Source: Lachnospiraceae bacterium AC2029 (GTDB taxonomy: Bacteria; Bacillota; Clostridia; Lachnospirales; Lachnospiraceae). Taken from it: a stretch of 64,000 bases of DNA. The position numbers and the translations under genes are program-made. Under the pieces are notes generated by a model. The model was not told where the DNA came from. It did no database searches and saw nothing but the letters and a program-made list of their open reading frames with translations. This document shows, piece after piece, positions 2,828-60,072 of the stretch; the first letter of the stretch is position 1, and every line of letters begins with the position of its first letter. Location: assembly GCA_000703065.1 (NCBI GenBank), contig JNLK01000001.1, forward strand, positions 1,054,001 to 1,118,000, in the 5' to 3' direction.

Positions 2828-2856
2828 TTGTAATGCAGGGTTGAAAATGCTACAAT
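2828..2856 (+). promoter_or_regulatory. candidate sigma-A promoter of the secreted amidase gene
   Basis: TTGTAA (2828-2833), a 17-nt spacer ending in TGC, then TACAAT (2851-2856). It lies about 32 bp before the ATG at 2888, leaving a short leader that contains the AAGGAGG ribosome site at 2873-2879. The spacing and extended -10 make this a good match. Confidence 0.6.
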
Positions 2857-2887
2857 GTTCAGTAACGAAATCCAAGGAGGACAGGCA

Positions 2888-20039: not shown

Positions 20040-23000
20040 TTACCTACCCTTAACGGACTTCTTCTCGGGAACCGTTCCGGTTCCGCTCTGTCCGGGTACA
20101 TTTACGTTTCCGCTCTTCTCAGCATTCCTTCCTGCCTGATTCTGCGCATTCATTCCAACCTGGTTCTGCACATTTCTGCCGTTCTGGCGCTGGCCGTTCT
20201 GCAGCTGACCATTCGCAGCTCTTCGCAGCTGTCGTTCCTTCAGGCGTCCCAGCTTCGCAATCCGTTCCACTGCCTGTGCCTCCATGCTTTCCAGCCATGC
20301 GGGGTTCTTATCCTGCTGCCTTGCGGCAACGGCCAGTTCGTCACGGTACATCTGCTTCCACTGATCCGGCGTTGAATTTCTCAGTTCCTCTGCGTTAACG
20401 CCCGGCTGCTCCAGCTTCCAGTTCTTGAAGTTGTCAAGACTATTAAACCGTCCGCTTCCGAAATTGAAGTTTACTCTCCGGTTGATCCTTGCCAGATCCT
20501 TCTCCTGCTGAGCCTTGTCCCGGGTATCGATCAGCTTCGGCGGATTCTCCGGCGACGCATCCATATTCGTCAATACCTTCTGCAGGTCCGTGTACCTCTT
20601 CTTGAAGTAAGATCCGGTCACCTCCCGTTTATGCCACATTTCCACCAGACTCTGCTGTCTTTCACGGATCATATCTCCAAGCCGGTCCACGTCCTTCCAG
20701 AATTCCTTGTAATTCTTCGTTTTATTCGATATGTCAGTTCGCATTTTGTTCTGGATGGAAATGATGTTCCGGTTCAGCTCCAGATCCGCGTTCCGAAGAT
20801 TGTTCTCCATGGTCCGGGTCTCATTCTTAAAATCGTCCTTCCACTTCAGATACACGCTCTTCGGCTGGGCTGCTATCTCCGCTTCATCTGCGGGCGCGGT
20901 CATATTCAGATCCCGATCCGCATTCAGCGCCAGCTTCTCCAACGCCTTATACTCTTTTTTGTCCCGGTCCTCCGGATGTGCCTTCAGGTAATCAAACATG
21001 GTTTCCTGGATCACGATCTTCGGTGCATCCATATCCGACGCAAGGGCAGAGGTCCGGTTTTTCTGATAGAGTGAGGTCAGTTTCGCATAAAGATTCTTCT
21101 CCTTCAGCATATCGCTGTAGTTTTCCGGCTTCGGCTTTTCGAGACCGAGGGACCCTGCGAGCGGGAGCGGAAGATGCTTCTTCTGGATCCCATTTTCTTC
21201 CAGGAACGCCATCTTCATGCCTTCCTTAAACTGATCCATGGTCTTGTCATCCACCACCGAATCCGGATTCAGAATATGGTATACGCTGGTAGCATATGCC
21301 GTCTCACGTTCCACCGCAGACTCAGCGATCCTGCCGATCTTATTCTGATAACGGAGCAGCGCCTTCCTGACCTCCGGGTCAGTCTCCAGATTGTACAGTC
21401 CTCCGATGCATCTTTCGACAAATGCGTCGCCGCTCATGTGTGAACCGAATGCCCCGGTTCTGATATTATCATTCTTCGTCTCGCTTTCACCCTTCTCATA
21501 AAGGACTTCCATGCTTTCGAAGAAATTCGTCCCCTTCGGCACCAGCGAATCGAATCCATTTGTAGACAGGTTCTTTTTCATATACCCGAGGATGCATTTC
21601 CCCGGATTCTCCGCAAATTCGACAAAGCTTTTGTCCATCTTCTTTGCGGCAACGCCCACCAGATAGAGACCGTTCATCCGGCTGTCGGATACCACATCAA
21701 ATGCAAACTCCGCCGGAACGACTCCGGTTCTCATGGTATCCAGATTTCCAGGGATACCGGCATCCTTCCCAAAGCCGTTCATCTCACGGAAGATCGCCTT
21801 CTCACTCTCAACCGCCCTGCGGTACTCCTCCTCAGCCGTTCTGATCCTCTCCAGATCCTTTGATTCCACCGCGGCCTTCAGGTTCTGACGTTTCCGGGCA
21901 GACAGCTTATGACTGTAGACCTTGGTTCCCTCTTCCAGCGGAGCATCCGCACTCAGCATCCCCTTCTGCTCCATCGTAGAAATCTGGAGAATGGCCTTCT
22001 CCCGTGTAGCCCTCGTCATATAAGGCGGATGGTCCAGGAAATCCCTGAATTCCTGTTCATTTTCTCTTGATATGGTTTCGACCTCAAGATCGTCGGTGAG
22101 CTTCTTCCTCCGGAAGAAATCCGGGAATTTCCGGGTTTTAGGATCATAGCCTTCCATCTGGAGTTTCAGACCCTCATCCTTCAGGTACATCGGATAGTCG
22201 TAGTTATTTACGGTGCAAAGACTATTCTTAACAGACCCGTCGATCTCTGCCAGCGCATTGCTCACACGGTCCAGCATCAGCAGATCCGCCTCCCTTACCT
22301 GCTGATCCTCATTTGTTCTTACAGTCTGCCGTACCGCTTCCACCTTATTCTCAAGGGGTCGTACCAGCAGCTCGTCAAGGCTCTTCTCACCCACATGTTT
22401 GATCTTCTTCAGATCCTCATCGATCCCGGCGATCCTATAGGGATTGCGGCGAACCTCCTGCAGGACGATATCAAAAAATGTCCGGAACCGTTCCTCATTA
22501 TCCGGCTTAACCGGAGAAGAATTCGCAGAAAGATCATTTACTGTTTTAATCTTCGCCCATTGATTTTCGTCTGCTTTCGCATTGAAGCGACTTATGATAT
22601 TTGTCCGCATGGAATGTGTCAGCTTGCCCTGAACCAGAGATGTCATATCATTCAGATGCTTCTCGGCAAATGCCTTCGTGCGTATCGCTTCCATACACTT
22701 CTCCGGCGTAAGGCCCCCAACAAAGTCCATGTTGTCGCCCACCAGTTCCCGTGCCTGATGAAGATCCTGAAGGTTCTTTTCGTAATAGTCCTTAAGCTGC
22801 TTTACGGTATCCTCCATGCTGCTTCCGTACGCCAGACGATCCTCGGACATCAGATTGTCCATCATATCCTTCGGAAGTCTCTGATGCTTTCTTCTGTAAC
22901 TCATTTTCAGCGGAATGCTGGCCTTCAGGGGTCCCTCATCCTGCGTATTGCTCATGAACCGGGACATGGTGTCCTGAGAGATCCTGTCATCCACCTCCTT

Positions 23001-25942: not shown

Positions 25943-25960
25943 CGCAACAAATGTGCAACA
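25943..25960 (-). promoter_or_regulatory. 18-bp double element upstream of giant A
   Basis: Minus strand TGTTGCACATTTGTTGCG, two TTGC half-sites 11 bp apart, 24 nt before TAGGATA. The same element precedes giant B (33896-33913) and the 59-kb locus (60038-60055). It may be an operator or part of an unusual promoter. Confidence 0.55.
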
Positions 25961-25985
25961 CACACTTATCACGCCCCGGTATTTG

Positions 25986-27044: not shown

Positions 27045-27167
27045 GGTTTTTCTCCTCTCTGTTTCCCGAACCGTGTCACCGTCCCGTCCTGTTCCCAACT
27101 TCCGGAATAACTGTTTATCACCTCGTGGTTGATATCCATTAATTCCCGAATTTGGCCTCCAGAATTC

Positions 27168-27410: not shown

Positions 27411-30400
27411 TCAGGCTCCCAGCACAGGATTCTGTGGTTTCTTCTTTGGGGCGTTCAGTTTGAACTGCCTGGTTGCATTTGCTCTCGCCTGCGGATCTCT
27501 TGTCCGTGCGCGATCCAGGATTGCCTTCTGGGAATTCACCATATCCTTTGCAAAATCTCCGTTCTCCAGCTTTCTTTGGAATTCCGGAAGGATCCTGTTC
27601 TCGCTGTCAAGAATACGGATTCCCTTATTCTCCACATAGTTCAGAGCCTCAATGACCACATCCGCCTTGGTCAGCTTATTTGCAGCCATCGCCCTCTGAA
27701 GGCCGGCATACTTCGGATCCTTCAGGATACTCTCGGTGATCACACGTGCAAGCCTTGCATTTCTGACCGTCTTCTGTCCCTCGGAAGCCGGATCATGATA
27801 GCCGTCACCATAAGCAACATAGCCTGCGACACCCATCACGCCTCCTCTCATTTTGAAGCCCTCGAGATCGGATGCCGACTGATTCTTGAGCTTATTGATC
27901 TTACGTTCAATATTGGTCCATCGGGTAAAAATCGAATTCGGATGTCTCAGAGCAATATCCCTGAATGTGGGATCCTGCCTCAGTTCTTCTGCCTTTCTCT
28001 TGAATACATTACCCCGGATCTCCTCACGCATGTTTCTCAGTTCTGCCGCATTCTTTGATTCCGCAGCGCGGATCAGATAATTTCTGACAAGGCATTCCGA
28101 TGCCAGTTCATACGTGTTGACATATCCCGGCTTGGTTTCCAGAAGATACTCCTTATTCTCCGTATACAGTTCCTCGTTCAGCTTCGACTTGGTCCTCTTC
28201 GCACAGGCATCCTTGATCAGAACTCTTTCCCTGGAAAGGTCCTCAAGCACGGCATACTCATCGTGAACCTGCTGCTGTGTCATGACATTCATATGATACA
28301 GCTCCTGTCCCTTAGCCTCTGCTGCAGTACAGGTATCATAAAGGGTCCTCATTCCTGTGGAAATGCTGTCCTCGGCCGTAACCTGTCCATATCCGAAGCC
28401 TTTCCTCTTAAGTGGTGCAACCGCTGCCTCCATGGCCGTCATCATCACTCGCATAGACAGCGTTGCTTCCTTCGAATGCCGTACACGATCCTTCCGGATC
28501 TTGCTGGCAAATGGGTTCCAGGTGTCATAATCCTTGGCGAATTTTGCAGCCACCATCCGGAACTGCTTCATGTTGTTCCACATCTCCAGCGGTGTGGAAT
28601 TGGGATTCGAAAGGGATTCAATACAATGATCCAGCTTGATCTCCATATCCTGATACTGCTGATTCCCTATAGTTCCGAATTCCTGAAGCGCATGCTGACG
28701 GAACTCTTCATCTGTCATTCCCGCCGGTCTCGGATGATCTCTCATGAAGATCTCCTTGATCTCATTCAGCCCCTGAATGAACCGTTCTCTGCTGTGGTTC
28801 AGTACATGAACCGCATCCGAGAAGGATTTCAGCTGCTGCCGGCTCGGCTGTTCTGCCTGCGGAATCTCAGGCTGAGGATCTGCTTCTCCCATTCCCTGTG
28901 GCTGAACAACCGGCTGTACCACGGGCTGCACTTCAGGCTGCACTACGGGCTGCACTATGGGCTGCACTACAGGTTGAACTTCCGGCTGAGCAACCTCGGG
29001 CTTCGGAAGCACATCCGGCCTGTACATCGAATCCGAGAAGATCTTAATTTCGATAAATGATAGATTCTCGATGAATTCCTCTACATTTTTCGGCTTCTCT
29101 TCGTCGGCCTTCTCCGGTTCCTTCTCGGGCTCCTTCTCCTCGTTGATCTCATTGATCTTGTCGGGATTCTCCTCCTCAATGATCTCATTGATCACATTCT
29201 TCGCCGGCTTCTTCTTTGCTCTTTCCTCTTCTCTCTTCGCTATTATTTCCTCATTCTTCTGCAGATCAGCTGCATAGATCGCATCGATATCAGTCAGAAG
29301 CTTATTCGGCGGGATCTGACGAAGTCTCCTGTCTGCCGCATTGTCGAACACAAAGGAGCCGATCTTTCCGATCGTGAGATTCTCCAGCGCATCCTTGAAT
29401 TCGGGGACCGTTTTCGCGAAACGGCGTGCATAGGTCGGCGCCTCGATCAGGGTGATCTTCGCATTTTCAAACCTTGAAAGAACACGCTCCGCCATGATAT
29501 CCAGCATGTATTTCTCTGCCTGCGCCTTATGGGATTTAATGTAATCCTCTCCCTTCAGGATCATCTTCGTAAGCTCGGTGGTGGCGGTCTTGGAATCCTC
29601 GATCATAGGCTTCCTATGATACTTCACGCCGACCATCTGCTCATCCAGGATCTTCAGCCGGGTCTTATGCATATTCGTAAGTGCGTTCTTGGAAAGCCCC
29701 GCGTAGAGACGATCCTCCTTCGAATATTTCTCATCGCCGTGGGCCTTTCGGAAAGCCTCATCCTTCGTCTTGTCGATATCCTTCTTCCAGTTCGCCATAT
29801 TGGCTTCCCGATCACGCTGTTTCACGGATTCCGCTATAACCTCCCTGCTCTGCGGCAGCATAAACTTTAACCGCCGGCACAGCATGATCAGTATTTTCTC
29901 CGCTCCGTTCGCTTTGGACAGATCTGCCTTCTTAAGTATGCTTTCGGCATTCTGCTCTACCTGAAGGGCATAATCGCTGTAGGTCTTTACATCCGACTCG
30001 GTGATCTCATCCGCTTCGGCAAATGTCCCGGCATAGGTTTTCAGTTTCGTAAATGATGTTTTAAGCTTCTTCAGCTGTCCGCTGGAAGCGATCCCGATCT
30101 GTTTTGAATTCATTTCCGAAATGCAGTACTGCGCTTCGATATTATTCAGCACTTCGGCAAAACTACCGGGCACCACCGAGCCATTGATATCCTTGAAATA
30201 TCTGCGGTTCACCATCCGAGCCGTATCTTCGATCCTGTCTCCGATCTCTTCATTCAATAATGAGAGCTGGGTTGCATTCTGCTCATTGAACTTCTCCTCA
30301 GGTTTGCCGATGTCCACGCCCCTGATACTCTGTAATCCGCCCTTCGTCTCTTGGTCGATATCACGGAGAAGCTGATCATACCGGTCTCCCTCTGCCGTAA

Positions 30401-33400
30401 GAAGCTGCTGATAGAGCTTGGACTTCTGTATTACCGGCATATACAGTTTCTTCAGGGTCTCGACTCCTTCGGGACTTCCGGCCAGGATCTCATGTCCGGT
30501 CCGTTGGTAAATTGAGTAGTTATTACTCACCTCGGCACCCTCAAACTGGCAGAGGCCGGACACATCCATCCTGGCTTCCGGATCAATGGAGAGATCCAAC
30601 CCCAGTCTATCGTATACACTCTCTACAAAATTGTCGGCAATCTTGGCTTTCTCCCTCGCCGCTTCCCTGAGGGTACTGATCAGATACTCGGTAAAGATCA
30701 TCTCACCGATCTGATCTGCCCGCTCCTTTGTTCCCGGTTTCGCCGGCTTTGAAAAGAGCTCCGGCTTATGGTCATAAACCCAGTTGACCGAGTTCATATG
30801 AAGATCAAAGGCCTTACACTTCTCCTTTCCTGCTTCTGTCGCATTTCCCTGTGCGTAGAAGGGCGGCTTACCGATCATCTCACCTGTGAGTTTGATCATC
30901 TGCTTTGTAGCGGTATTCTCTCCGTGCTCATTCCTGTAGAGATATTCGCTGCTGATCTGCTGAGCGCTGTTCACGGCCGAAACGCCGAAGTTGATCAGGG
31001 TTTCGATCATCCCCTTCGCCCGCTCCGGTTTTCCCTGCTTATACTCCTCGATCGCCTCGATCGCTTTTTTACGACCCTCCACCATTGCCAGAGCTGTGCT
31101 TCCCTGCCTGTCAAAATCGGGGGTCTCCGAAAGGATATTTGCCGTAATGAAATTCTGATTGAAGTCCAAAAATGTCGTTGTTCCAGACTGGAAGCTGGAG
31201 GTGCATGCCTTGACCTTCAGAACATCGCTCTGCATGATACTTCCCAGAACGATCGCTGTAACCGTATTTTCATCCAGTTCCGGAGGTGGATCGATCGTCA
31301 GTTCATTGTACTCCTCATGCAGCTTAATGGTGTCAAACATCTGCGGCTTCGATCCGTAGACCTGATGGAACCGGCGTTCCACATGATCATGATCCTTGGA
31401 GAGGCCTTCTACATTCTTCATGTATTCCACTACTGCCTGTCGCTGAACCCGCCTCATGAGCTCATCGTCACGCTCCTTGATCTTTGCATCGATCTGATCG
31501 GTGACGACCTTGCTCTGACTATTCTGCTCATCCCCAAAGTAGTTCTCTATTTCATCCCGTCTCCTGATCCTGGGATCCTGCGGATCCAGTGCAGATCCGT
31601 CCCGGCCGACTCCGATGATATCCTCCGACTTCTCACCGAACGCAAACTGAATCAGCTGCGCCTTCGTCAGATGTGCCGTTTCCTTTCGGAATTCGGGAAT
31701 CCGATCCGTCACTCCCGGAATCAGTTGATCCAGCGGGATCACGACTCTCGCCTGAGCCTGATTTTTCATCGTTGTCAGGAGTCTGTAGTTGAATATATCC
31801 TTCATCAGACTCTTTGCTTCCTTTGCCTCTTCCGGAGTCAGCTCACCCTCCTTGGAAATGAGACCGCCCAGGCGTTCGGTAGCCGTGACCGCCTTGTCCT
31901 GAAGCCGCTTCTTCATATCATCCGCTCCGAAGCGCTCCATTTCCATCTCTGACTTCACGCGCTGAACCAGCGGATCTATCTCCTTCGCCGTAATGGGTGC
32001 CTTGGAAGTAAGGAGTTTCTTTGTATCAGCGACTCTCTCGTCCCGTCTCTTTCTCAGATTCATCCCGATCTTCTGTCCGTTCAGCGCTCGTCTTACACGG
32101 ATCATACTGAAATGTGCCGCCTTCGCCTCTGCCTCTTCCGGAATCTCCGGGTTCTTCCTGAAGTAATCATCCACAGCGGAGATCGTGAGATCCAGCTGTT
32201 TCGAATAAGAGTCGATCTGCTTTTGTTTCACTTTATTCTTCTTGCCCAGATTATGGAAATCTTCGGCCTGGAGGCAGAGATCCTTCAGGGTTTCAAAGAC
32301 ACCCTTGTATCTGGGATCCGTAACCTTAGGTGTAATGTCGGTTTCTTTTCCCACCTTTTTTACAACGAGCTGACTCTTCGGTAGATTCTCTATAAAATCA
32401 TTCCACGCGCCGTCGGCAACGGCCTTGATACGCCTGGTTCCTTCCGCATCATATTTCTCTACCTGATTCCGTTCAACGGCCTTTTCCTCTGCATAGGAAT
32501 TGACATGATCAGTCAGCCGGTTCAATTCCGCATCAAAAGCAGGCTGCATCGCCTGATTGAAGGCTGCAGCCTCACCATTCAGTTTCACTCCGAAAAATGC
32601 GGCAAAGCCCTTTCTGACCTTACCTTCCGTTTCCATGAGTGCATCCTTGAACTCATTTCCGTCCGCCGATACAAGCTTCTTATAATGATCCGTCTTCCTG
32701 ATCTCATCCATGTAGAGACTTCGGAACTTCTCCTTATAGTCCGGTGCAGCAAGGATTGTCTCCAGATCTGTGACCCTCTGGGTCTTTACCAGATTCAGCA
32801 GATCCATCCCCACTGAAGCTATGAGCTCAGGCTTGCTCATAAGACGTGTATACTCTGAGGAGCCGCGGTTGATCGCACATCGTTCCATCACCTGTCTCAT
32901 CAGTTCCGTTTGAAGAGTCATCTTCTCATCACTTGCATGATTCAGGGTATTGGACAGATACTCGTGGAACAGGAATTCCGCAACCTGATCTTCCCTTTCC
33001 CTGGTATTCGGTTTCGGAGGCTCCTTCATAAGAGCGATCTTCCTTGTTACAAGTTCACTCTGTGACTCCGCCAGATGTGAGTATGCAATAAGCTTTGCAC
33101 GTTCCTCCGGAGGAATCTTGCTGCCGCTCTTAAAGGGTTCCTTTTCCAGGATCCTTCCCGTCATCAGCAGGAGTCCCTTTCCCTCAGAGTACTCATTGGA
33201 GGTGGGAACAATGATCGAACTTGCCGGATAAAAGGTATGAGTCTTCAACCCTCTGATGGCAAAGTTGCACACGTCATCCACCATCTCGACCATACGACTG
33301 GGATCACCCTTTTTATAAGCCTCGATGGCCTGATTTGCCTGGTATCTCCCCTCTACCAGAACCGACGGAAAATACCCCGTTCTCTTATCTTCGTTCAGAA

Positions 33401-33809
33401 TACCCGAAACCAGGAATTCCCTGTTGAACTCCTTAACCGTCATGGAACCTGGAGTGAAGCTGGAGGAGGTCATCGCACGGTCCGTCCATTCATCACGCAT
33501 GCAGGAACCCAGCACCACCAGAGACACATCCCCGGGTGAAAGGTCCTCGGGCGGTTTGATCACCATATTCGTATACCTGGATTCAATACTCTTGATCATT
33601 ACAGATCCATGGGGGCCGTAATGATTAATGAAGCGATTCTCCGTCTTAGTCCGCGCTTTTGCGGTAGCTTCCAGATCCTCCAGATGCTCCGCTCTCGCCC
33701 GTTCCTTCCTCTGCTCGGGTGTAGGCTTCGGCGCTGTCACCTTATTATTCTTATTATTCTTTTTATTCTTATCGTTCTGATCATTCTTATCGTTCGTTTT
33801 CTTCGGCAT
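27411..33809 (-). CDS. giant protein of unknown function, 2132 aa (giant B)
   Basis: The start at 33809 (MPKKTNDKNDQND) has TGGAGGT 7-8 nt upstream; the frame is open further out but that part lies in palindromic intergenic DNA. After a Lys/Asn-rich head, residues about 60-490 and 810-1240 are two copies of one domain. Shared landmarks are YGPHG/YGSKP, KPPEDLS.../DPPPELD, VVLGSCM/IVLGSIM, an SSF...G..T..FN segment and GRILEKEPF/GEMIGKPPF. A long helical region follows, then a hinge at about 1603-1641 of VVQP/EVQP repeats, then a C-terminal domain ending KPQNPVLGA. No signal peptide, membrane helix or enzyme motif was seen. It is a paralogue of giant C over its whole length. Function unknown; probably a cytoplasmic structural or scaffold-like protein. 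Confidence 0.88.
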   Translation of the reverse strand: MPKKTNDKNDQNDKNKKNNKNNKVTAPKPTPEQRKERARAEHLEDLEATAKARTKTENRFINHYGPHGSVMIKSIESRYTNMVIKPPEDLSPGDVSLVVLGSCMRDEWTDRAMTSSSFTPGSMTVKEFNREFLVSGILNEDKRTGYFPSVLVEGRYQANQAIEAYKKGDPSRMVEMVDDVCNFAIRGLKTHTFYPASSIIVPTSNEYSEGKGLLLMTGRILEKEPFKSGSKIPPEERAKLIAYSHLAESQSELVTRKIALMKEPPKPNTREREDQVAEFLFHEYLSNTLNHASDEKMTLQTELMRQVMERCAINRGSSEYTRLMSKPELIASVGMDLLNLVKTQRVTDLETILAAPDYKEKFRSLYMDEIRKTDHYKKLVSADGNEFKDALMETEGKVRKGFAAFFGVKLNGEAAAFNQAMQPAFDAELNRLTDHVNSYAEEKAVERNQVEKYDAEGTRRIKAVADGAWNDFIENLPKSQLVVKKVGKETDITPKVTDPRYKGVFETLKDLCLQAEDFHNLGKKNKVKQKQIDSYSKQLDLTISAVDDYFRKNPEIPEEAEAKAAHFSMIRVRRALNGQKIGMNLRKRRDERVADTKKLLTSKAPITAKEIDPLVQRVKSEMEMERFGADDMKKRLQDKAVTATERLGGLISKEGELTPEEAKEAKSLMKDIFNYRLLTTMKNQAQARVVIPLDQLIPGVTDRIPEFRKETAHLTKAQLIQFAFGEKSEDIIGVGRDGSALDPQDPRIRRRDEIENYFGDEQNSQSKVVTDQIDAKIKERDDELMRRVQRQAVVEYMKNVEGLSKDHDHVERRFHQVYGSKPQMFDTIKLHEEYNELTIDPPPELDENTVTAIVLGSIMQSDVLKVKACTSSFQSGTTTFLDFNQNFITANILSETPDFDRQGSTALAMVEGRKKAIEAIEEYKQGKPERAKGMIETLINFGVSAVNSAQQISSEYLYRNEHGENTATKQMIKLTGEMIGKPPFYAQGNATEAGKEKCKAFDLHMNSVNWVYDHKPELFSKPAKPGTKERADQIGEMIFTEYLISTLREAAREKAKIADNFVESVYDRLGLDLSIDPEARMDVSGLCQFEGAEVSNNYSIYQRTGHEILAGSPEGVETLKKLYMPVIQKSKLYQQLLTAEGDRYDQLLRDIDQETKGGLQSIRGVDIGKPEEKFNEQNATQLSLLNEEIGDRIEDTARMVNRRYFKDINGSVVPGSFAEVLNNIEAQYCISEMNSKQIGIASSGQLKKLKTSFTKLKTYAGTFAEADEITESDVKTYSDYALQVEQNAESILKKADLSKANGAEKILIMLCRRLKFMLPQSREVIAESVKQRDREANMANWKKDIDKTKDEAFRKAHGDEKYSKEDRLYAGLSKNALTNMHKTRLKILDEQMVGVKYHRKPMIEDSKTATTELTKMILKGEDYIKSHKAQAEKYMLDIMAERVLSRFENAKITLIEAPTYARRFAKTVPEFKDALENLTIGKIGSFVFDNAADRRLRQIPPNKLLTDIDAIYAADLQKNEEIIAKREEERAKKKPAKNVINEIIEEENPDKINEINEEKEPEKEPEKADEEKPKNVEEFIENLSFIEIKIFSDSMYRPDVLPKPEVAQPEVQPVVQPIVQPVVQPEVQPVVQPVVQPQGMGEADPQPEIPQAEQPSRQQLKSFSDAVHVLNHSRERFIQGLNEIKEIFMRDHPRPAGMTDEEFRQHALQEFGTIGNQQYQDMEIKLDHCIESLSNPNSTPLEMWNNMKQFRMVAAKFAKDYDTWNPFASKIRKDRVRHSKEATLSMRVMMTAMEAAVAPLKRKGFGYGQVTAEDSISTGMRTLYDTCTAAEAKGQELYHMNVMTQQQVHDEYAVLEDLSRERVLIKDACAKRTKSKLNEELYTENKEYLLETKPGYVNTYELASECLVRNYLIRAAESKNAAELRNMREEIRGNVFKRKAEELRQDPTFRDIALRHPNSIFTRWTNIERKINKLKNQSASDLEGFKMRGGVMGVAGYVAYGDGYHDPASEGQKTVRNARLARVITESILKDPKYAGLQRAMAANKLTKADVVIEALNYVENKGIRILDSENRILPEFQRKLENGDFAKDMVNSQKAILDRARTRDPQARANATRQFKLNAPKKKPQNPVLGA
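28886..29000 (-). repeat. VQP-repeat hinge inside giant B
   Basis: DNA repeats of 12-15 bp encode VVQPIVQPVVQPEVQPVVQP. Giant C has a different, longer repeat at the same place, so this segment changes faster than the flanking domains. Confidence 0.75.
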
Positions 33810-33828
33810 GATCCATACCTCCAGTTTT

Positions 33829-33840
33829 TTCGCACAACAA
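33829..33840 (-). promoter_or_regulatory. conserved leader motif 20 nt before the giant B start
   Basis: Minus strand TTGTTGTGCGAA, 20 nt from the ATG. Giant C has TTGTTGCACGAA at 41686-41675, 18 nt from its ATG. Possible operator or mRNA binding site overlapping the ribosome site region. Confidence 0.4.
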
Positions 33841-33895
33841 TCAAAGCCCCTCCTCGGGGATCTTATCCTATATAATGTCAGTATACCTCTCCGGA

Positions 33896-33941
33896 CGCAA
33901 CAAAAGTGCAACAACCCCCTAAAATGTTGCACTTTTGTTAC
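33896..33941. promoter_or_regulatory. dyad of the 18-bp double element upstream of giant B
   Basis: CGCAACAAAAGTGCAACA (33896-33913, plus strand) is the element. A reverse copy, TGTTGCACTTTTGTTAC, lies at 33925-33941, giving 17-bp arms with one mismatch and an 11-nt loop. On the minus strand the promoter-proximal copy is followed 25 nt later by TAGGATA. A regulator binding site or a hairpin are both possible. The 368-bp gap 33810-34177 also holds the palindrome at 34036 and a terminator. Confidence 0.6.
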
Positions 33942-34035
33942 CCTCTTTCTGTTATAGTGGAATCTAGGAACCAAACGTTTACATGGAACCGTGCCACATG
34001 ATCCTAACAAGGGGACATGTTCCGAGCCACATGCG

Positions 34036-34095
34036 TGACAGAGGGACGGGTTCAGTGTCACATTTTCATGTGACACTGAACCCGTCCCTCTGTCA
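34036..34095. repeat. perfect 28-bp palindrome with 4-nt loop
   Basis: TGACAGAGGGACGGGTTCAG... (34036-34063) pairs perfectly with 34068-34095 around TTTC. It shares GGGACGG with the other REP-like palindromes but has a different inner sequence (GTTCAGTGTCACAT). Confidence 0.85.
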
Positions 34096-34118
34096 TGCGC
34101 CCCTGTCATAATATGAAT

Positions 34119-34151
34119 AACCTCCGCAGATCACACCGATCCGCGGAGGTT
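34119..34151 (-). terminator. terminator of the wall-binding protein gene
   Basis: AACCTCCGC (34119-34127) pairs with GCGGAGGTT (34143-34151), with further pairing of GATC inside. It lies 27 bp beyond the stop at 34178 and is followed on the minus strand by ATTCATATTATG. Confidence 0.65.
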
Positions 34152-34177
34152 ACTGTCATCTCAGTTTATTGTCCTTT

Positions 34178-35095
34178 CTAATAGACTCCATAGAACTGAT
34201 AATCGCACGAGAAATCAGAAAGATCTGCATTCTTCTTTTCCAAAAACTTCGGCGGGATCACAATCGTAGTCAGCGATGACTTGTGATGATTTGCCGGCAG
34301 ATACACCTTTTCAGAATTCGTGTAGTTGACAGCTGTAACAACTTCTTTATCCGCGTCATAAATTGTCATATCCACACTACTATAGCTCGTAATATATTTC
34401 GTCTTGCTCGTATTCACATAGTACCCCTTCACAACCAGGTCTCCGCTCTTGTTATAGTAGAGTTCTTCAAATACGAATACCAGATCACTCTTATAGGTGG
34501 AGTATGACTGCAGCTCATTATTCGTCTTGAACAGATAGACATACTCATCATCCACATAAATCCTATCTGTAAAAAGGGTACCGTCATTCAGCATCAGATA
34601 CGTATGAGCTCCCACGCTCGTCCATCCGGTCGCCATAACGCCCGCTTTGAAGTAGTACCAGTAACCGGAGATCTTCCTCCATCCGGTCACCATCACTCCG
34701 TCCGCAAAGAAATACCACTTGCTGCCGATCTTCTTCCAGCCTACTGCCATGGTTCCGTTGGTATTGAAATAATACCACTTGCCGCCGATCTGTCTCCAGC
34801 CGGTCTGCATAATGCCGGCGCCGTTGAAATAGTACCACTTGCCGCCGATCTTCTTCCATCCGGTCACCATGTACCCTTTATCATTTATGAAGTACCACTT
34901 ACCGGATGACTTGACCCATTCGTTCTTCGCGTACTTGCCCTTGGAGTATTCATAGTAATACCCTTTGGAATCCTTCTTCCATTTTCCTGTTGCTGCTTCC
35001 GATGCCATATCACCGAACACAAAGACCTGTGACAGACACAGCCCCAGAAGCAATACAAGCGTTACCAGTCTTTTCTTCATTTTCCCTTTCTTCAT
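34178..35095 (-). CDS. secreted protein with choline-binding-type wall repeats
   Basis: A 305-aa protein with signal peptide (MKKGKMKKRLVTLVLLLGLC, cleavage near SEAA) and six repeats of about 20 residues, such as GWKKIGGKWYYFNGAG and GWRQIGGKWYYFNTNG, over residues 36-165. Residues 170-305 form a separate domain with no recognised family (DEYVYLFKTNNELQSYSTYK, later VYLPANHHKSSLTTIVIPP), predicted mainly beta. The repeats should hold it on the cell wall. AGGAGG lies 6-7 nt before the ATG and the gene begins only 16 bp after giant C ends, so the two are probably one transcript. This is the only exported product within the giant-protein block. Confidence 0.85.
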   Translation of the reverse strand: MKKGKMKKRLVTLVLLLGLCLSQVFVFGDMASEAATGKWKKDSKGYYYEYSKGKYAKNEWVKSSGKWYFINDKGYMVTGWKKIGGKWYYFNGAGIMQTGWRQIGGKWYYFNTNGTMAVGWKKIGSKWYFFADGVMVTGWRKISGYWYYFKAGVMATGWTSVGAHTYLMLNDGTLFTDRIYVDDEYVYLFKTNNELQSYSTYKSDLVFVFEELYYNKSGDLVVKGYYVNTSKTKYITSYSSVDMTIYDADKEVVTAVNYTNSEKVYLPANHHKSSLTTIVIPPKFLEKKNADLSDFSCDYQFYGVY

Positions 35096-35111
35096 TCGCC
35101 CCTCCTTTTCT

Positions 35112-38100
35112 TTATCCGAATACCGGATTCTGTTGCTTTATCTCCTGCTTCTTCTGTGTATTATTGAGGTTGAATTTACGGGTTACGTTTCTTCTCTCCT
35201 GCGGGTCTCTCCGGCTTGCACGCTCAAGGATCGCCTTCTGGGAATTCACCATGCCCTTTACGAGGTCTCCGTTCTCCAACCGGCGCCGGAAATCCGGACG
35301 GATCTGCTTGTTGTTGTTCAGGATGTTGATGTGCTTACGCTCCACATAGTCCAACGCCTCGATCACCACATCCGCCTTGGTCAGCTGCTTTGCGGCGATC
35401 GCCCGCTGAAGGACGCCGTACTGCGGATCCTTTAAGATACTGTCGGTGATCACCCGGGCAAGTCTTGCATTTCTTGCGGCATCCCGCTCCGGGGCAGCCG
35501 GATCCCAGGGTCCGTCCCCAAAGGCAACATAGCCGGCAGCGCCCAGCATTCCGCCTCTCATGTTAAATCCGCTGATGGAATTGCCAGCTTCCTGACGGAT
35601 GTTTTCCGCCTTATTCTCTATCCTTGCCCAGCGTGTATAGCATGTATCCGGATGGGCAAATGCGATCTGCCGGAACAGCGGATCCTCCGCCATTTCCGTC
35701 ACCTTTTTGTTGAAGCTGCTACTCCGGATCTCCTCTCTCATGGTTCTCAGCTCCGCGGGATCCTTGGATGCACCGGAGCGTACAATATACGACTTGAGCA
35801 GACAATCCTCCGCAACATCGTATACGCTGAGGGTTCCGGTCTTCGACTGAAGCAGCTGATCCTTATTCTCGGTATGCAGCTCATCCATCATTCTGCCCTT
35901 GGCCTTCTTCTCACAGGCTTCCTTCACCAGAAGTCTTTCCTTGGAAAGATCCTCAAGAACCGCGTATTCATCCTGTGCCTGCCGTACCGACATGACCTTC
36001 ATGTCATACAGCTCCCTACCCTTTGTCTCTGCATTTCTGCACTCATTGCAGATGTCTTCCATATTTCTGGAAAGGCAGTTCTCCGCCGATATGGTACCAT
36101 ATCCGAAACCTGGATCTGTAAGCGGCGCTGTCGCCGACTCAAAGGCCGACATCATGACGCGCATTGTCAGCACGGACTCCTTGGCATGGATCACCTGATT
36201 TTTACGTATACTGCCTGCAAATGGGTTCCAGGTATCAAAATCCTTTGCATAGACTGCAGAAGCCTTCCGGAACTGCTTCATGGAGTTCCACATCTGCTGC
36301 GGAGTTGATTTCGGATCCGACAGTACGGATATACAGCTGTCCAGTCGTGCCTCCACATCCTGATACTTCTGATTTCCCGTTGTGCCGAACTCACTAAGGG
36401 CATGCTGACGGAATTCCTCATCCGACATTCCACGCGGTCTCGGCCGATCCGTCAGGAACTTCTCCTTCAGGGCGTTCAGACCCGAAAGGAATCTCTCGCG
36501 GCTGTAGTTGAATACATGTACGGCATTCGAGAAGTTCTGAAGCTGCTCAAGATCCGGCTGCGGTCCCTGAATTCCTTCCGGCTGTACCTTCGGCTCCACT
36601 TCCTGCATGCCTTCCGGCTGTGCCTTCGGTTCCACTTCCTGCATGCCTTCCGGCTGTGCCTTCGGTTCCACTTCCTTCATGCCTTCCGGCTGTACCTTCG
36701 GCTCTTCCTCTACCTTCTTCGGCTCTTCCACCGGCTTCACAGGCTGCTCCACCTTCGGCTCTTCCTCTACCTTCTTCGGCTCTTCCTTCGGCTTCACGGG
36801 CTGCTCCACTTTCGGCTCTTCCTCTACCTTCTTCGGCTCTTCCACCGGCTTCACGAGCGGCGCCTCACGATGCAGCTCATCCGAGAACAGCTTAATTTCG
36901 ATGAAGGTCATATCTTCCACAAAGTTCTCGATATTCTTCGGCTTCTCCGGTTCTTTCTCCTGCCCCTTCTCCTCATTGACCTCATTGATCTTATTCGGAT
37001 TCTCCTCTTGGATCTCCTTCTTCTCTTTTGCCTTCTTGCCTCTTGCCTCCTCAATCTTTTCGATCTCCGCAAGCCCCTCTTCATATTTCTGCCTGTACTC
37101 TTCGTCGACCGTATCCATGAGATTCTGCTTCGGTATCTTAGCAATCACCTTATCCGCCGCACGGTCAAACACATAGGAACCGATCTTCCCGATGGTAAGA
37201 TCATTCAATGCTGCCGTGAATTCCGGAATCCGGTTTACCAAGCGGCTCGCATAGGTTTTCGGCTCAATGAGCGGAACTCCGGCGGTATTAAAGCGAGCAA
37301 GCACACGCTCTGCCATGATTTCGGACACAAAGCCCTTCGCCTCCGCCTGATGTGTCTTTATATAGTCCTCACCCTTCAGGATCATTTTCGAAAGCTCGGT
37401 GGTGGCAGTCTTTGCACTATCAATCATGGACTTTCTGGAATCCTGTGTCCCCACCTTCTGCTCATCCAGATATTCCTTCTGGATCCGGTGCAGGGAGTTC
37501 ATTGCATCCTTGGAAAGGCTCGCATAAAGGAGGTCCTCCTTCGAGTAGGAACCCTTTTCATGCGACTGCAGGAATGCCTGTTGTTTTGCGGGATCGATCT
37601 TTTGCTTCTGCTCCTCCATATCGGACTCACGCTGCCGCTGAAGGATCGGCGCAAGGATCACCTCACGGGATGCCTTCAGCATCGTCTGTGCCCTGCGGCA
37701 CATCATGATCAGCTTCCTCTCCTGCTTATTCGCCTTGGAAAGATCCGCTTTTTTGATCATATCCGCAGCATTCTTCTCAACGATCATGGCAAGTTCGCTG
37801 TACTTTCTTGCATCCGCATCTCTGATCTCATCCTGAGCCGCGATAGCATTTGCATGATTCTGCAGATTGTCAAATGCCTTTTTGAAATTCTTCAGCTGTC
37901 CCGAAGAAGCGAAGGAAACCTGCTTCATATTATAGGTGAAGTTATCATATACGTCAGAGAACAGATGCAGACGCATATCGAAGCTGGTATTATCGATTGA
38001 ACCGTCCTGCTCCCGGAAATAGGATCGATTCACCATTCGTGCGATATCGTTGATCTTTTCTTCCAACTCCGCATTCCTGAGACTAATCTGTGCTTCATTT

Positions 38101-41100
38101 CGAGCATTGAAGTCTGCAGAAGGATTTCCGATCTTCACGCCCTTGATGCTCTGTAATCCCTTTTCCGCCTCCTGATCTACATTCAGAAGGAGTTCAGCAT
38201 ACTTATCTCCTTCTGCAGAAAGCAGCTGCTTATACATATTCGACTTCCGGATCTCGGGGAGATACGCCTTTCTCAAGGTCTCAATTCCTTCCGGTGTCCC
38301 CGTCAGATACTCAAGATCCGTACGATGGAACAGATTGAAATTCTGCTCGATCTCAATCCCTTCCGTAGAAGCCATACTTTGAACATCCGTCCTGGACTCG
38401 AAATCCAGCTTTGAGTCCAGACCTAATTTTTCATATATACCGTTCACGTAGGCGTTGGCCATTTTCTCCTTCTCACTTTTCGCCATACTGACGGTACTGA
38501 CCAGGAACTCATTGAAGATCAATTCATCGAGCTGCTGTGCTCTCTCCTTCGATCCCGGCTTTTCAGGCTCCGAAAGGATCTTATACTTGGTATCATAGAT
38601 CCGGTCTATGGTCTTCATGTACAGATCGAAGGCCTTACACTTTTCCTTCTCCGCCTCGGTTGCTTTTCCCTGTGCATTCAACGGCGGTTTGCCGATCAGT
38701 TCTCCGGTCATCTGGATCAGGGTCTTTCCTTCATTGTTCAATCCTGTTTTTGTGTTGAAAAGAGAGTCGCTGTTACTTGTAGACACATTCTCCAGGGAAT
38801 CCACGCCGAAATTGATGAAGGTTTCCAGCAGTTCCCGTGCCTTTTCAGGCTTACCCGCCTTATAATCCTCGATGGCGTCATATGCCTTCTTCCGCCCCGC
38901 CACCATGGCAAGCGGAATACTTCCCTGTCTCTGAAGATCCGGATCTGTCTTGATCATATTTTCAATCAGGAAATTCTGATTGAAATTCTGGAATGTGGTT
39001 TTGTCTGCCCGGAAACTGGAGGAGGTCGAACGATACTTCAGACGTTCCTCCTGCATGATACCGCCCAGAACAATGGCTGTGACCATATTCTCATCCATAT
39101 CCTTCGGCGGATCAATGGTGATCGCATTGTAATCCTGATGAAGCTTCAGGCCTTCCGGCATATTCGGTTTTGAACCGTAGTACTGATGGTACAGCCGGTA
39201 CACGCCATGATGATCCTCATAAAGTGCCTTTACAGTTTCTACCCGTCCCTGCATCACCCTCCGTTTGTACTCTTCGGCTGCCCGGTCCTTACGGTCCTGC
39301 AGTTTCTTATTGATCTCCGCAGTTTTGGTTTCGGCCCGGCTCGTCAGTTCATCTTCAAAAAAGGTTGTAAGCGTGGTCCTTCTCGATTCCAATTTGTCAC
39401 CCACGGGTAATCCTGATGCATCTCCGGTGATCCCGATGATCTCTTCCGACTTACGTCCGGCCGCAAACTGCAGCAGCTGCTTCTTCGTAAGATGCCCCGT
39501 CTCCTTTGCGAATTCAGGTATCCGGTCAATCGCCCCGGAGATCACGGTGTCACAGGGAACCGGCAGCGTCTTGTCCAAATGATTCCTCATTGTTGTGTAA
39601 AGCTTATATCCGAAGACATCCTTCACACAGTTCTTTGCTTCCGCCATTTCGTCCGGAGTAAGCTCTCCATCCTTGGAAATGAGCTCGCCAAGTCGACCGG
39701 TTGCTGTGATCGCCTTATCCAGCATCCGGTTCTTTGCTTCATCCGCTCCGAAGCGTTCCATCTCAAGCTCTTCCTTCATCCCCCGGATCAGCGGATCGGT
39801 CTCCGCTCCCGTTACAGGTTTTTTGGAAGAAACAATTTTACGTACCTCAGCGTAACGCTCTGTCTGCTTCATGGCGCGGGCCACACCGATCTTATGACCG
39901 GTCAGTGACCTCTTCACCCGGAGCACGCTGTAGTAAGCGTCCCTCGCCTCAGCCTCGGCCGGTACGGCCTTATTGGCTTCGAGGTATTCATCGGCCGCTG
40001 CGATCGCACGGTCGATCTTCTCCGAATAGGAATCGATGTGCTTTCCGGTCACCTTCTTCTTCTGACCCAGAGGAACAAGTGTCTCCGCCTCTTTTCCCAT
40101 ATCCGCCAGCGCCGTGAAAAGCTTCTTATACATGGGATCCGTAACCTTCGGTTTGATCAGATTCTCACCCTTCCCCGGAAGCCTTTCCAACTGACTTTCC
40201 GGAAGATTCTTCACAAAGTCATCCCGTATCTCGATTGCTCTGTTATGGAGTTGTTTTGTACCCTCGGCGTTGAATTCCGTGATCTGACCACGTGCCAGTG
40301 CGATTTCCTCCGCTACGGTACCCACCACTCCGCGGACACGTCTCACCTCTGCATCATAAGCTGCCTGCATTGTTTGGTTTATGGCTGCTGATTCGTTGTT
40401 CAGCTTCACATTTTCGAACTCACCAAACCCTTTCCTTGTCTTCTTTTCCGATTCCAGAAGGGCATCCTTAAACTCATTGCCTTCCGCGGACACAAGCTTC
40501 TTATAATGGTCTGTCTTTCGGACCTCCTCCATGTAGAGATTCCTGAACTTCTCCCGATAATCAGGGGCTGCCAGGATCGCCTCTCTGTCCGTAACCTTTC
40601 TCACTTTGGCGTTATTCACCAGCGGAAGAAGGATCCGATTGATATTGTTCCCGTTCCCGCACATGATGGAGTAATCCTGTGAACCAGGAACCACGCCAAT
40701 CTCTTCCAGCAGTCTGTCCCTTTCCTGCTCGTGGAGATTACCTTTTTCCCCTTCCACTGTGGCAAGTGTATTGGACAGATACTCATTGAACAGAAACTCG
40801 GCCACCTGATCCTCACGTTCCTTCGTATTTGCTTTCGGTGGCTCCTTCATCAGCGCAAGCTTCTGATCGATACATGCCGACTGCGCTTCGGACAGGTGGA
40901 GGTAAGCCGTCAGCTTCAGATGGTCTCCTTCAGAGACAGTGCTATGACTCTTAAAGGGCTCCTTCTCCAGGATCCGTCCGGCCATCAGAAGCATAGACTT
41001 TGAAGAGCCGAATTCATCGTCGGCTGAGTATGCGAACGCCTGATCAAGGGAATAATAGGTCTGATCCTTCAATCCGTGGACAGCAACCTTGATGAAATTA

Positions 41101-41657
41101 TCCACCATCTCCACCATACGGGTGGCATCGCCTTTCTTATAAGCCTCTATGGCTTCTCTGGCTTCCGCTCTTCCCTCCAGCAGGACCGGCGGAAAATGTC
41201 CCAGTCTCTTATCCTCCTTTACTACTATATTCTGAACCAGGAACTCCTGATTGAAATCAATAACGGTTGTACTTCCCGGAGGAAAACCGGATCCGGTCAT
41301 CGGCCGGTCCAACCACTCGGGACGCATGCAGGATCCCATAACGACCATTGAAACCTCCAGCGGATCCAGATCCTTCGGAGGATTGATCACCATCAGGTCA
41401 TAATCATCCTGACCGTTCATGGCATACATCTGGCCTCTCGGGCCGTAACGCTTAATGAACTTCTGCTCTACCTTCTCCCGCGTAGTCCGCAACTCCTCCA
41501 GCTTACTCTGATGCTCTGTTCTCTTCCGCTCTTTGATCTGCTCCGGAGTTGGCTTGGGTGGTTTCACCACCGGCTTGGCACTTTGCGCTCCGCCACCGGT
41601 TTTGTTCTTGTTATCCCTGGTATTCGCTTTCTTTTTCTCGTTTTCTTTCTTCGGCAT
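35112..41657 (-). CDS. giant protein of unknown function, 2181 aa (giant C)
   Basis: Paralogue of giant B along the entire length. A Lys-rich head MPKKENEKKKANTRDNKNKT is followed by the duplicated domain at about residues 70-500 and 820-1250 (RYGPRGQ, INPPKDLDPLEVSMVVMGSC; then YYGSKPN, IDPPKDMDENMVTAIVLGGI). A long helical stretch leads to a hinge at about 1598-1699 and the C-terminal domain (FSNAVHVFNYSRERFLSGLN) ending QQNPVFG. The conserved positions between the two copies include GSCM/GGIM, SSF or SGF, FNQEFLVQN/FNQNFLIEN and ERxDQxxExxFNEYL. No catalytic motif is evident. GGGGGA lies 8 nt before the ATG, and TTGTTGCACGAA is 18 nt upstream. It is followed at 16 bp by a secreted wall protein gene. 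Function unknown. Confidence 0.88.
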   Translation of the reverse strand: MPKKENEKKKANTRDNKNKTGGGAQSAKPVVKPPKPTPEQIKERKRTEHQSKLEELRTTREKVEQKFIKRYGPRGQMYAMNGQDDYDLMVINPPKDLDPLEVSMVVMGSCMRPEWLDRPMTGSGFPPGSTTVIDFNQEFLVQNIVVKEDKRLGHFPPVLLEGRAEAREAIEAYKKGDATRMVEMVDNFIKVAVHGLKDQTYYSLDQAFAYSADDEFGSSKSMLLMAGRILEKEPFKSHSTVSEGDHLKLTAYLHLSEAQSACIDQKLALMKEPPKANTKEREDQVAEFLFNEYLSNTLATVEGEKGNLHEQERDRLLEEIGVVPGSQDYSIMCGNGNNINRILLPLVNNAKVRKVTDREAILAAPDYREKFRNLYMEEVRKTDHYKKLVSAEGNEFKDALLESEKKTRKGFGEFENVKLNNESAAINQTMQAAYDAEVRRVRGVVGTVAEEIALARGQITEFNAEGTKQLHNRAIEIRDDFVKNLPESQLERLPGKGENLIKPKVTDPMYKKLFTALADMGKEAETLVPLGQKKKVTGKHIDSYSEKIDRAIAAADEYLEANKAVPAEAEARDAYYSVLRVKRSLTGHKIGVARAMKQTERYAEVRKIVSSKKPVTGAETDPLIRGMKEELEMERFGADEAKNRMLDKAITATGRLGELISKDGELTPDEMAEAKNCVKDVFGYKLYTTMRNHLDKTLPVPCDTVISGAIDRIPEFAKETGHLTKKQLLQFAAGRKSEEIIGITGDASGLPVGDKLESRRTTLTTFFEDELTSRAETKTAEINKKLQDRKDRAAEEYKRRVMQGRVETVKALYEDHHGVYRLYHQYYGSKPNMPEGLKLHQDYNAITIDPPKDMDENMVTAIVLGGIMQEERLKYRSTSSSFRADKTTFQNFNQNFLIENMIKTDPDLQRQGSIPLAMVAGRKKAYDAIEDYKAGKPEKARELLETFINFGVDSLENVSTSNSDSLFNTKTGLNNEGKTLIQMTGELIGKPPLNAQGKATEAEKEKCKAFDLYMKTIDRIYDTKYKILSEPEKPGSKERAQQLDELIFNEFLVSTVSMAKSEKEKMANAYVNGIYEKLGLDSKLDFESRTDVQSMASTEGIEIEQNFNLFHRTDLEYLTGTPEGIETLRKAYLPEIRKSNMYKQLLSAEGDKYAELLLNVDQEAEKGLQSIKGVKIGNPSADFNARNEAQISLRNAELEEKINDIARMVNRSYFREQDGSIDNTSFDMRLHLFSDVYDNFTYNMKQVSFASSGQLKNFKKAFDNLQNHANAIAAQDEIRDADARKYSELAMIVEKNAADMIKKADLSKANKQERKLIMMCRRAQTMLKASREVILAPILQRQRESDMEEQKQKIDPAKQQAFLQSHEKGSYSKEDLLYASLSKDAMNSLHRIQKEYLDEQKVGTQDSRKSMIDSAKTATTELSKMILKGEDYIKTHQAEAKGFVSEIMAERVLARFNTAGVPLIEPKTYASRLVNRIPEFTAALNDLTIGKIGSYVFDRAADKVIAKIPKQNLMDTVDEEYRQKYEEGLAEIEKIEEARGKKAKEKKEIQEENPNKINEVNEEKGQEKEPEKPKNIENFVEDMTFIEIKLFSDELHREAPLVKPVEEPKKVEEEPKVEQPVKPKEEPKKVEEEPKVEQPVKPVEEPKKVEEEPKVQPEGMKEVEPKAQPEGMQEVEPKAQPEGMQEVEPKVQPEGIQGPQPDLEQLQNFSNAVHVFNYSRERFLSGLNALKEKFLTDRPRPRGMSDEEFRQHALSEFGTTGNQKYQDVEARLDSCISVLSDPKSTPQQMWNSMKQFRKASAVYAKDFDTWNPFAGSIRKNQVIHAKESVLTMRVMMSAFESATAPLTDPGFGYGTISAENCLSRNMEDICNECRNAETKGRELYDMKVMSVRQAQDEYAVLEDLSKERLLVKEACEKKAKGRMMDELHTENKDQLLQSKTGTLSVYDVAEDCLLKSYIVRSGASKDPAELRTMREEIRSSSFNKKVTEMAEDPLFRQIAFAHPDTCYTRWARIENKAENIRQEAGNSISGFNMRGGMLGAAGYVAFGDGPWDPAAPERDAARNARLARVITDSILKDPQYGVLQRAIAAKQLTKADVVIEALDYVERKHINILNNNKQIRPDFRRRLENGDLVKGMVNSQKAILERASRRDPQERRNVTRKFNLNNTQKKQEIKQQNPVFG
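36561..36862 (-). repeat. proline/glutamate repeat hinge inside giant C
   Basis: Tandem DNA repeats encode KPVEEPKKVEEEPKVEQP units (three) and EGMQEVEPKAQP units (four). These lie exactly where giant B has VQP repeats, between the helical region and the SDAVHV/SNAVHV domain. Slippage of such repeats would change hinge length. Confidence 0.8.
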
Positions 41658-56479: not shown

Positions 56480-56615
56480 GAGCAACCTCCCACTCCAATA
56501 ACTCACGCAGATCAATCACGATCTGCACTGTTCTGCCTGCCGTACCGCAGGCGAAGTTATCCCATCTCCTGCTTCTCATGGCAGCTGCCCTGCCCTCCGT
56601 TATGCCGGAGCATCA

Positions 56616-58379: not shown

Positions 58380-58395
58380 ATAATACCTTTCTGTA

Positions 58396-60037: not shown

Positions 60038-60055
60038 CGTAACAAAAGCGCAACA
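60038..60055 (-). promoter_or_regulatory. 18-bp double element upstream of the membrane protein and broken gene
   Basis: Minus strand TGTTGCGCTTTTGTTACG followed within 16 nt by TATAAT. It differs from the giant B element at two positions. It lies between the 541-aa gene (ends 60073) and the membrane protein start. Confidence 0.6.
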
Positions 60056-60072
60056 CACCTTCTAAATAATTT

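Follow-up and report, generated by a model that had tools for sequence, protein, structure and literature searches.

Internally duplicated giant proteins of a Lachnospiraceae bacterium as candidate substrates of a Gram-positive type IV secretion system

Two giant genes of Lachnospiraceae bacterium AC2029 encode proteins, termed B and C, in which a unit of about 700 residues occurs twice. The analyzed window is a stretch of 64,000 nt from assembly GCA_000703065.1 (contig JNLK01000001.1, positions 1,054,001-1,118,000, forward strand), and feature positions are counted within it. The duplication is real in both proteins. Judged from a common promoter, giant B and a third giant, A, but not C, almost certainly form a shared regulon with the type IV secretion system (T4SS) of these bacteria. 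On this basis, we put B and C forward, with moderate confidence, as candidate substrates of a Gram-positive effector T4SS. G and L numbers are our handles for genomes and loci, respectively.

Internal duplication of the unit

The preliminary description of this DNA had proposed that a domain is duplicated inside both giants, and self-alignment against shuffled sequences was set beforehand as the test. Smith-Waterman scores of the four B/C pairings ranged from 440 to 467, against shuffle maxima of 74-83. The alignment of B(1-720) with B(721-1400) scored 441, while 200 shuffles gave a mean of 48, a standard deviation of 6.4 and a maximum of 74. C1 against C2 scored 446 (shuffle maximum 83), B1 against C2 467 (77), and C1 against B2 440 (79). 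The ordered series of landmark motifs described for the two halves was found in all four copies, with variants in the motifs themselves. In the numbering that starts at the internal ATG (33809; 2132 aa), the first and second copies in B have YGPHG at 64 and YGSKP at 818, VVLGSCM at 98 and IVLGSIM at 853, EKEPF at 222 and GKPPF at 980, and EREDQ at 271 and ERADQ at 1029. The C series lies at 71/827, 105/862, 231/989, and 280/1038, with the variants VVMGSCM, IVLGGIM, GKPPL, and ERAQQ. Only two of the four corresponding segments (PPEDLS, PPPELD, PPKDLD, and PPKDMD) match PPxxLD exactly.

The length of about 430 residues first assigned to the domain turned out to be too short. A profile of seven first-unit rows, including one from a single-unit protein, aligned with a profile of four second-unit rows over 680 columns with an E-value of 5e-86. 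The part past residue 430 matched alone (E 3e-26), and three column-shuffled controls stayed above E 0.3. Therefore, we set the unit at about 700 residues. A hidden Markov model (HMM U) of it was built from the four B/C copies. Over nearly their full length, B and C share 51% identity. The C-terminal module D was considered as a third copy of the unit and rejected: the pairs B1/B3, B2/B3, and C2/C3 were at chance level by Smith-Waterman, and hhalign gave E 0.07. The C1/C3 pair scored 88 against a shuffle maximum of 83, the match falling in the end of unit 2, which was part of the C3 slice.

Age of the duplication and spread of the family

A tree of 24 units, midpoint-rooted for drawing only, bore out the proposal that the duplication predates the split of B and C. 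Six first-unit rows grouped together (100/99), as did five second-unit rows (100/99), and these two groups were joined (100/99) apart from 13 single-unit rows. Since the first and second units form separate, joined clades, the tree supports a single duplication that is older than the B/C split and than several species splits. Two-unit relatives occur as two proteins in G236 and one in G232, the latter cut by a contig end; the duplication is supported as having preceded the split from these as well. The G218 protein L044 (1347 aa, one unit and module D) was placed inside the first-unit group, and so it has probably lost its second unit. The other relatives in hand are single-unit, mostly in proteins of about 1020-1200 aa, with two inside proteins of 1699 and 3090 aa. 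Module D matched the C-terminal half of the single-unit proteins only weakly (prob 21, E 0.001).

A first profile scan of genome contigs with C gave no relative; a narrower alignment found them. With the whole of C as query, 24 of the 61 genus genomes had a relative, and the unit profile also detected 24 of 61, with partly different membership. Apart from G002, which is from another genus, the rest of the family gave only weak matches: 5 of the 299 genomes sampled had one, namely the own genome, G160, G002, and two at E 1e-4 to 6e-5. The phylum sample (n = 299) yielded a match in the own genome alone. With unit identities to C unit 1 of 18-53%, the giant family is, by these searches, fast-diverging and nearly confined to its own Lachnospiraceae genus. 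Its bearers include uncultured Lachnospiraceae RUG12082 and RUG10588, Lachnospiraceae bacterium YSB2008, Eubacterium ruminantium FB3002, and one further uncultured Lachnospiraceae metagenome-assembled genome. We take the rumen to be their probable habitat, from the names of the relatives. E. ruminantium FB3002, a named species among the bearers, presumably grows in culture.

Giant A belongs to the same context. A remote single copy of the front part of the unit was found in it by hhalign (prob 94.4, E 8.6e-8), five shuffled controls and one reversed control giving E 0.25 or higher. The unit and A-like modules are fused in one open frame in G226 and G238, and in E. ruminantium a unit gene adjoins an A-like gene on the same strand. 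The remote unit, the fusions, and this adjacency place A, B, and C in one modular superfamily.

Predicted structure and family searches

The AlphaFold model of C unit 2, built with 13 sequences, was all-alpha, with a mean predicted local distance difference test (pLDDT) score of 90.3 and a predicted template modeling score of 0.81. The model of C module D (4 sequences, pLDDT 81.4) was mostly helical, its last 16 residues having low confidence. Foldseek searches of the PDB and BFVD with the unit and module D returned no match at E 0.001 or less. VIA-align Z scores of the unit reached 11.1, inside the range of the tool for helical bundles. Its candidate structural kin 8rfe, SidC, CSP1, and XaxA (Z 8-11) were not accepted, as each match covers about 100-120 residues and perhaps reflects just a common helical arrangement; the same may hold for the kin of module D (Z up to 9.5). 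In profile searches, the unit hit a designed coiled coil and Rab1A weakly, from E 0.003 upward, and module D hit occludin and TFIIS, from E 0.09 upward; we took all of these as chance.

Giants A, B, and C gave no match above cut-off in Pfam and NCBIfam, the best E-value against PHROGs was 0.039, and PADLOC had no match at E 0.1. Two further origins were dropped: a role in anti-phage defence, given the lack of a PADLOC match, and a phage tail or tape-measure origin, for which the best BFVD match had E 0.06 with a template modeling score of 0.16 and a scan of viral contigs contained no relative.

A promoter shared with the type IV secretion locus

Giants A and B are preceded by a promoter consisting of a tandem 11-bp direct repeat, then 11 nt, then an extended -10 box. 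Among the loci in hand, 88 distinct sites with 2 or fewer mismatches gave the consensus TTTGTTGCGCTTTTGTTGC, followed by 11 nt and an extended -10 resembling TGnTATAAT. A TATAAT-like box with 1 mismatch or fewer lies within 30 nt of 76 of the 88 sites, and exactly 11 nt downstream of 62; after shuffling, roughly 40 sites have such a box at any distance and roughly 2 have it at this spacing. No -35 box at normal spacing was seen by eye. In having direct repeats spaced by one helical turn immediately upstream of the -10, the promoter resembles sites of the OmpR/PhoB type.

A repeat with 5 or fewer mismatches to the 21-mer was present at 26 of 44 starts versus 6 of 8800 simple shuffles, a comparison that is not independent because the motif was found in these very sequences. 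More independent tests were given by the site counts in the window, the own genome, six genomes, and 61 genomes. The window holds 3 matches against 0.11 expected. At a looser cut-off, the own genome gave 16 against 4, three of the 16 being one low-complexity sequence. Six genomes, chosen for carrying giants, have 6-23 sites each, with 0-1 for the reversed pattern. Copies of the promoter precede 12 of 17 unit-bearing starts. Three tandem 11-bp repeats, forming overlapping sites, occur at L173:107-136 (+), L183:8083-8112 (-), and L202:14235-14264 (-), which points to binding of more than two regulator subunits at some promoters. Beside the B site, a second promoter-like repeat at 33923-33941 (+) runs in the opposite direction (4 mismatches, then TTATAGT); there is no evident plus-strand gene behind it, and an antisense or small RNA is possible.

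The T4SS locus of the own genome (L199) lies within 986.5-1006 kb, about 78-105 kb from B and C. It contains genes for a pilin, VirD4, a VirB6-like protein, a 1536-aa VirB4, a STAS protein, and a histidine kinase. VirD4 matched NF045973 with 293 bits (cut-off 250) and PF02534 at 3.5e-54. VirB4 matched PF19044 with 57.2 bits (cut-off 25.8) and NF045975 at E 6e-163, its 543.6 bits falling below the equivalog cut-off of 590. The VirB6-like polytopic protein reached 126.6 bits for NF045848 (cut-off 90), and the pilin-like VirB2 41.4 for PF18895 (cut-off 26.6) and 42.5 for NF045849 (cut-off 40). This VirB2 is an extra component, as PMC12857230 states that VirB2 is absent from Gram-positive systems except those of Patescibacteria.

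In L199, the pilin gene has a promoter copy in front of it (4 mismatches), as does the gene of a 1950-aa, hydrophobic-start protein (3 mismatches). Another precedes the pilin in G202, where the pilin, VirD4, and VirB4 were confirmed, and the large hydrophobic-start proteins of that T4SS locus also lie behind copies. In G236 and G201, copies precede pilin-like genes heading operons that are T4SS-like by resemblance. Hydrophobic-start proteins of 1887-2002 aa stand beside the T4SS at L158:1952-7804, L164:2566-8229, and L201:9196-15204; those of L158 and L164 have a PLAT domain and that of L158 a weak CBM56 match, and they are perhaps a surface or wall-spanning part. Regulators of the partner-switching type were recognized by Pfam in the regulon or T4SS locus (SpoIIE in L164, STAS in L199), and SpoIIE-, anti-sigma-, and STAS-like open reading frames (ORFs) were seen by eye only in L169, L201, and L204. 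A response regulator lies beside the T4SS of G202, the C-terminal part of which weakly matches Trans_reg_C, below cut-off.

Co-occurrence of giants and secretion system

A VirB4 ortholog (1204 bits or more) was found in 27 of the 61 genus genomes. Open frames of 1365-1649 aa are present in 25 of these 27 orthologs, with 72-77% identity to the G202 protein. Giants, counted as present when any of three queries matched at E 0.001, occur in 25 of 27 genomes with the ortholog and in 5 of 34 without (Fisher's test, relatedness ignored, 4.6e-10). The unit profile alone gave 20 of 27 versus 4 of 34, and among the genomes at least 90% complete (n = 33) giants were found in 15 of 16 versus 1 of 17. The number of promoter sites per genome followed the same division, with a median of 10 (1-25) with the T4SS and 0 (0-18) without (p 1e-8). 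Giants and T4SS share one contig in G226 and in G002 of another genus. Extended VirB4 orthologs (open frames of 1271-1606 aa, 61-65% identity) were also seen among 200 genomes in other Lachnospiraceae genera, in G002, G153, G074, G120, G147, and G075. These genera, G002 excepted, yielded no giants and may hold unrecognized substrates.

Proteins encoded behind the promoter

The ORF behind each of 46 sites (3 or fewer mismatches) was read in the window and 36 fetched regions, covering four genomes. Of the promoter-linked complete ORFs of at least 400 aa, 26 of 32 (25 distinct) lack a hydrophobic start and 6 of 32 have one. The 25 distinct ORFs, which include B and A, have a charge of +5 in their last 30 residues, compared with -2 in 37 hand-picked controls (p 4e-8), and their tails are polar and poor in hydrophobic residues. 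An M-P or M-K-E/Q start occurs within 45 residues in 21 of 25 and in 1 of 37 controls, and exactly at residue 1 in 14 regulon ORFs and no control. C stands outside this count; its tail is similar by eye.

PI3/PI4 kinase matches were obtained for 6 of the 25, two of them above the Pfam cut-off (L159 of the own genome and L167 of G236), and the motif GN.DRH..N...IDND is present in 5 of 25. Calpain was matched above cut-off by one E. ruminantium protein (L184). Beside Fam20C, seven other families were matched by one member each, at E 1e-4 to 7e-3. In G227, an ADP-ribosylglycohydrolase fusion protein lies behind a copy of the promoter. The E. ruminantium ORF at L065:6351-8756 (801 aa) matches Fam20C just above and PI3/PI4 kinase below cut-off, with a promoter upstream (5 mismatches). 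The kinase-like and calpain-like domains would suit action within eukaryotic cells.

Layout of the giant genes and their neighborhood

The coordinates of the giants, their modules, and the promoters of the window are collected in Table 1.

Table 1. Giant proteins, their modules, and promoter repeats in the 64,000-nt window.
Feature	Position	Strand	Basis or remark
Giant C, 2181 aa: unit 1, unit 2, Pro/Glu linker, module D, basic tail	35112..41657	-	
C unit 1, residues 39-742	39432..41543	-	HMM U
C unit 2, residues 795-1509	37131..39275	-	HMM; AlphaFold model all-alpha
C linker	36678..37130	-	sequence
C module D, about 500 aa	35115..36677	-	HMM; modeled from 36548 on
Giant B, 2132 aa from the probable start, ATG at 33809	27411..33809	-	ORF analysis
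B unit 1, residues 32-733	31611..33716	-	HMM
B unit 2, residues 786-1500	29310..31454	-	HMM
B linker, Pro/Glu/Val-rich repeats	28956..29309	-	sequence
B module D	27414..28955	-	57% identical to C module D
Giant A, 1929 aa, own promoter copy	20040..25829	-	
Remote single copy of the front part of the unit in A, residues about 674-928	23046..23810	-	hhalign
Promoter direct repeat of B, GTTGTTGCACTTTTGTTGC, 87 nt before ATG	33897..33915	-	
Promoter direct repeat of A, TGTGTTGCACATTTGTTGC, 114 nt before ATG	25944..25962	-	
Third promoter repeat, before a 191-aa ORF (59316-59891, -) with a hydrophobic start	60039..60057	-	

The B frame is open to 34109 and would encode 2232 aa, but this start is probably 100 codons too early; the inner ATG is favored because a ribosome-site-like GGAGG precedes it. 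B and C show no signal-peptide-like start and begin with a short Lys/Asn-rich segment, and their basic C-terminal tails are probably disordered. In the C linker, tandem Pro/Glu/Lys-rich repeats at 36566-36855 extend into the start of module D as drawn.

An Hsp70-like gene (25986-27098, -; PF00012 E 3e-7) lies between A and B and could serve the giants as a chaperone. Proteins with choline-binding repeats are encoded nearby at 2855-3886, 34178-35095, 50685-52565, and 52625-56515; among them are one weak CHAP match and one S8 subtilase with such repeats. Downstream of the 191-aa ORF of the third promoter is an IS605-type OrfB/TnpB-like gene (57261-58451, -). No tRNAs or RNA families were found in the window.

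Discussion

Because the giant family largely shares its promoter type with the T4SS, export cargo is the role suggested for the giants. As response-regulator and kinase genes adjoin the T4SS, we propose a regulator, probably of the OmpR/PhoB type, which would bind the 11-bp direct repeats above the extended -10 and switch on the T4SS and its substrates together. VirD4 would recognize the substrates, with their basic tails as a possible signal, and the T4SS would export them into a neighboring cell. Inside it, the helical units may act as binding or scaffolding modules beside the co-regulated enzymes, and the doubled unit would be a doubled module of this kind. The likeliest target would be eukaryotic, for instance a rumen ciliate, a tentative suggestion to which we give a little less than even weight.

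Several observations weigh against export of the giants by the T4SS. No enzymatic domain was matched by B or C. The 300 bp before C contain no copy of the promoter (the best candidate has 10 mismatches); C starts 73 nt behind a histidine-kinase gene and is possibly transcribed from there. Four further unit-bearing starts of the 17 also have no copy, some of which may be operon-internal. No VirB1- or VirB8-like protein was matched among the L199 proteins scanned; two proteins of the locus, of 329 and 777 aa, are unassigned. The distribution has its exceptions: G214 (96% complete) has giants and 18 sites and G207, G208, G209, and G221 (70-86% complete) have giants, all five with no VirB4 ortholog; G240 and G244 have the T4SS and no giants were found in them; G203 (99% complete) has 7 sites and neither giants nor T4SS; and G205, G210, G211, and G223 carry 3-5 sites and no T4SS. 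Relatedness among the genomes, which the co-occurrence statistics ignore, belongs here too. The tail and start features were chosen after inspection of the sequences, and the rule assigning ORFs to sites favors long ORFs, 7 sites having given none.

The giants might instead stay inside the cell as scaffold- or cytoskeleton-like members of a regulon for stress or development, with the T4SS as just another target of its regulator. The SpoIIE and STAS regulators of L164 and the own T4SS locus speak for this and against export, and the predicted all-helical units and the Hsp70-like gene would fit it too. We nevertheless consider it rather unlikely, in view of the co-occurrence of the giants with the T4SS, the fast divergence of the units (18-53% identity to C unit 1, while VirB4 holds 72-77% to the G202 protein), the eukaryote-like enzymes in the regulon, and the common start and tail features.

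Killing of bacteria by T4SSs is known in Gram-negatives. With this precedent and the ADP-ribosylglycohydrolase-fused protein of G227, the giants could be substrates aimed at competing bacteria and not at eukaryotes. The PI3/PI4-kinase-like and calpain-like domains would suit eukaryotic targets better, and a bacterial target seems unlikely to us. Interbacterial toxin delivery is listed among T4SS roles in PMC12857230. Least probable is a conjugation apparatus whose T4SS moves DNA, with the giants as its accessory parts or regulators: the VirB4, VirB6, and pilin do match models named after integrative conjugative elements (ICEs), but the promoter sites of the six genomes lie on many contigs or far apart, the next VirB4-like matches of the genus (terminal ortholog fragments aside) stay below 90 bits at about 24-38% identity, and no relaxase was matched among the T4SS-locus proteins scanned, a search that was not exhaustive and did not extend to the genome itself.

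Export of the giants by the T4SS can be set beside known systems. Legionella Dot/Icm effectors are likewise large and modular, with eukaryote-like enzymes and many per genome. Dot/Icm is a Gram-negative type IVB system; the units of the giants have no Pfam family or solved structure beyond chance, and Legionella proteins matched the unit by VIA-align at the helical-bundle level only. Pho-box promoters of the PhoB/OmpR type also carry 11-bp direct repeats, placed some 10-11 nt upstream of the -10; their sequence differs from that found here. The Mycoplasma/Firmicute ICE T4SS models NF045975, NF045848, NF045849, and NF045973 are those matched by the VirB4, VirB6-like, pilin-like, and VirD4 proteins; unlike the systems so modeled, this locus has a VirB4 of 1536 aa, STAS and histidine-kinase genes, and a promoter in common with the giants.

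Dedicated effector translocation by Gram-positive T4SSs is described in PMC12857230 (December 2025) as a long-standing question, with the 89K pathogenicity-island system of Streptococcus suis apparently the first case. That system is also of the Gram-positive VirB/D4 type and tied to protein export. It concerns one secreted protease, SspA-1, whereas the Lachnospiraceae genus has a large co-regulated set of giant proteins that are candidates for export. Among open-licence literature, by titles and the starts of abstracts, no paper on a T4SS effector regulon in Lachnospiraceae was found; in PMC6079354, the T4SS appears in the reference list alone.

The large modules of the giants, which are predicted to be helical, fall in no curated family and lack a convincing counterpart among known folds. 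The promoter signature, the T4SS locus, and a defined set of candidate substrates make the Gram-positive effector question directly testable. It is conceivable, though we would not put it as high as even, that the T4SS has turned into a dedicated effector injector, with up to about twenty large genus-specific effectors, some kinase-like, some calpain-like, and others, such as B and C, purely of the scaffold type, directed against, or partnering, rumen eukaryotes. If so, a Legionella-like lifestyle would have arisen independently in Firmicutes, and domain duplication would be one route of effector diversification.

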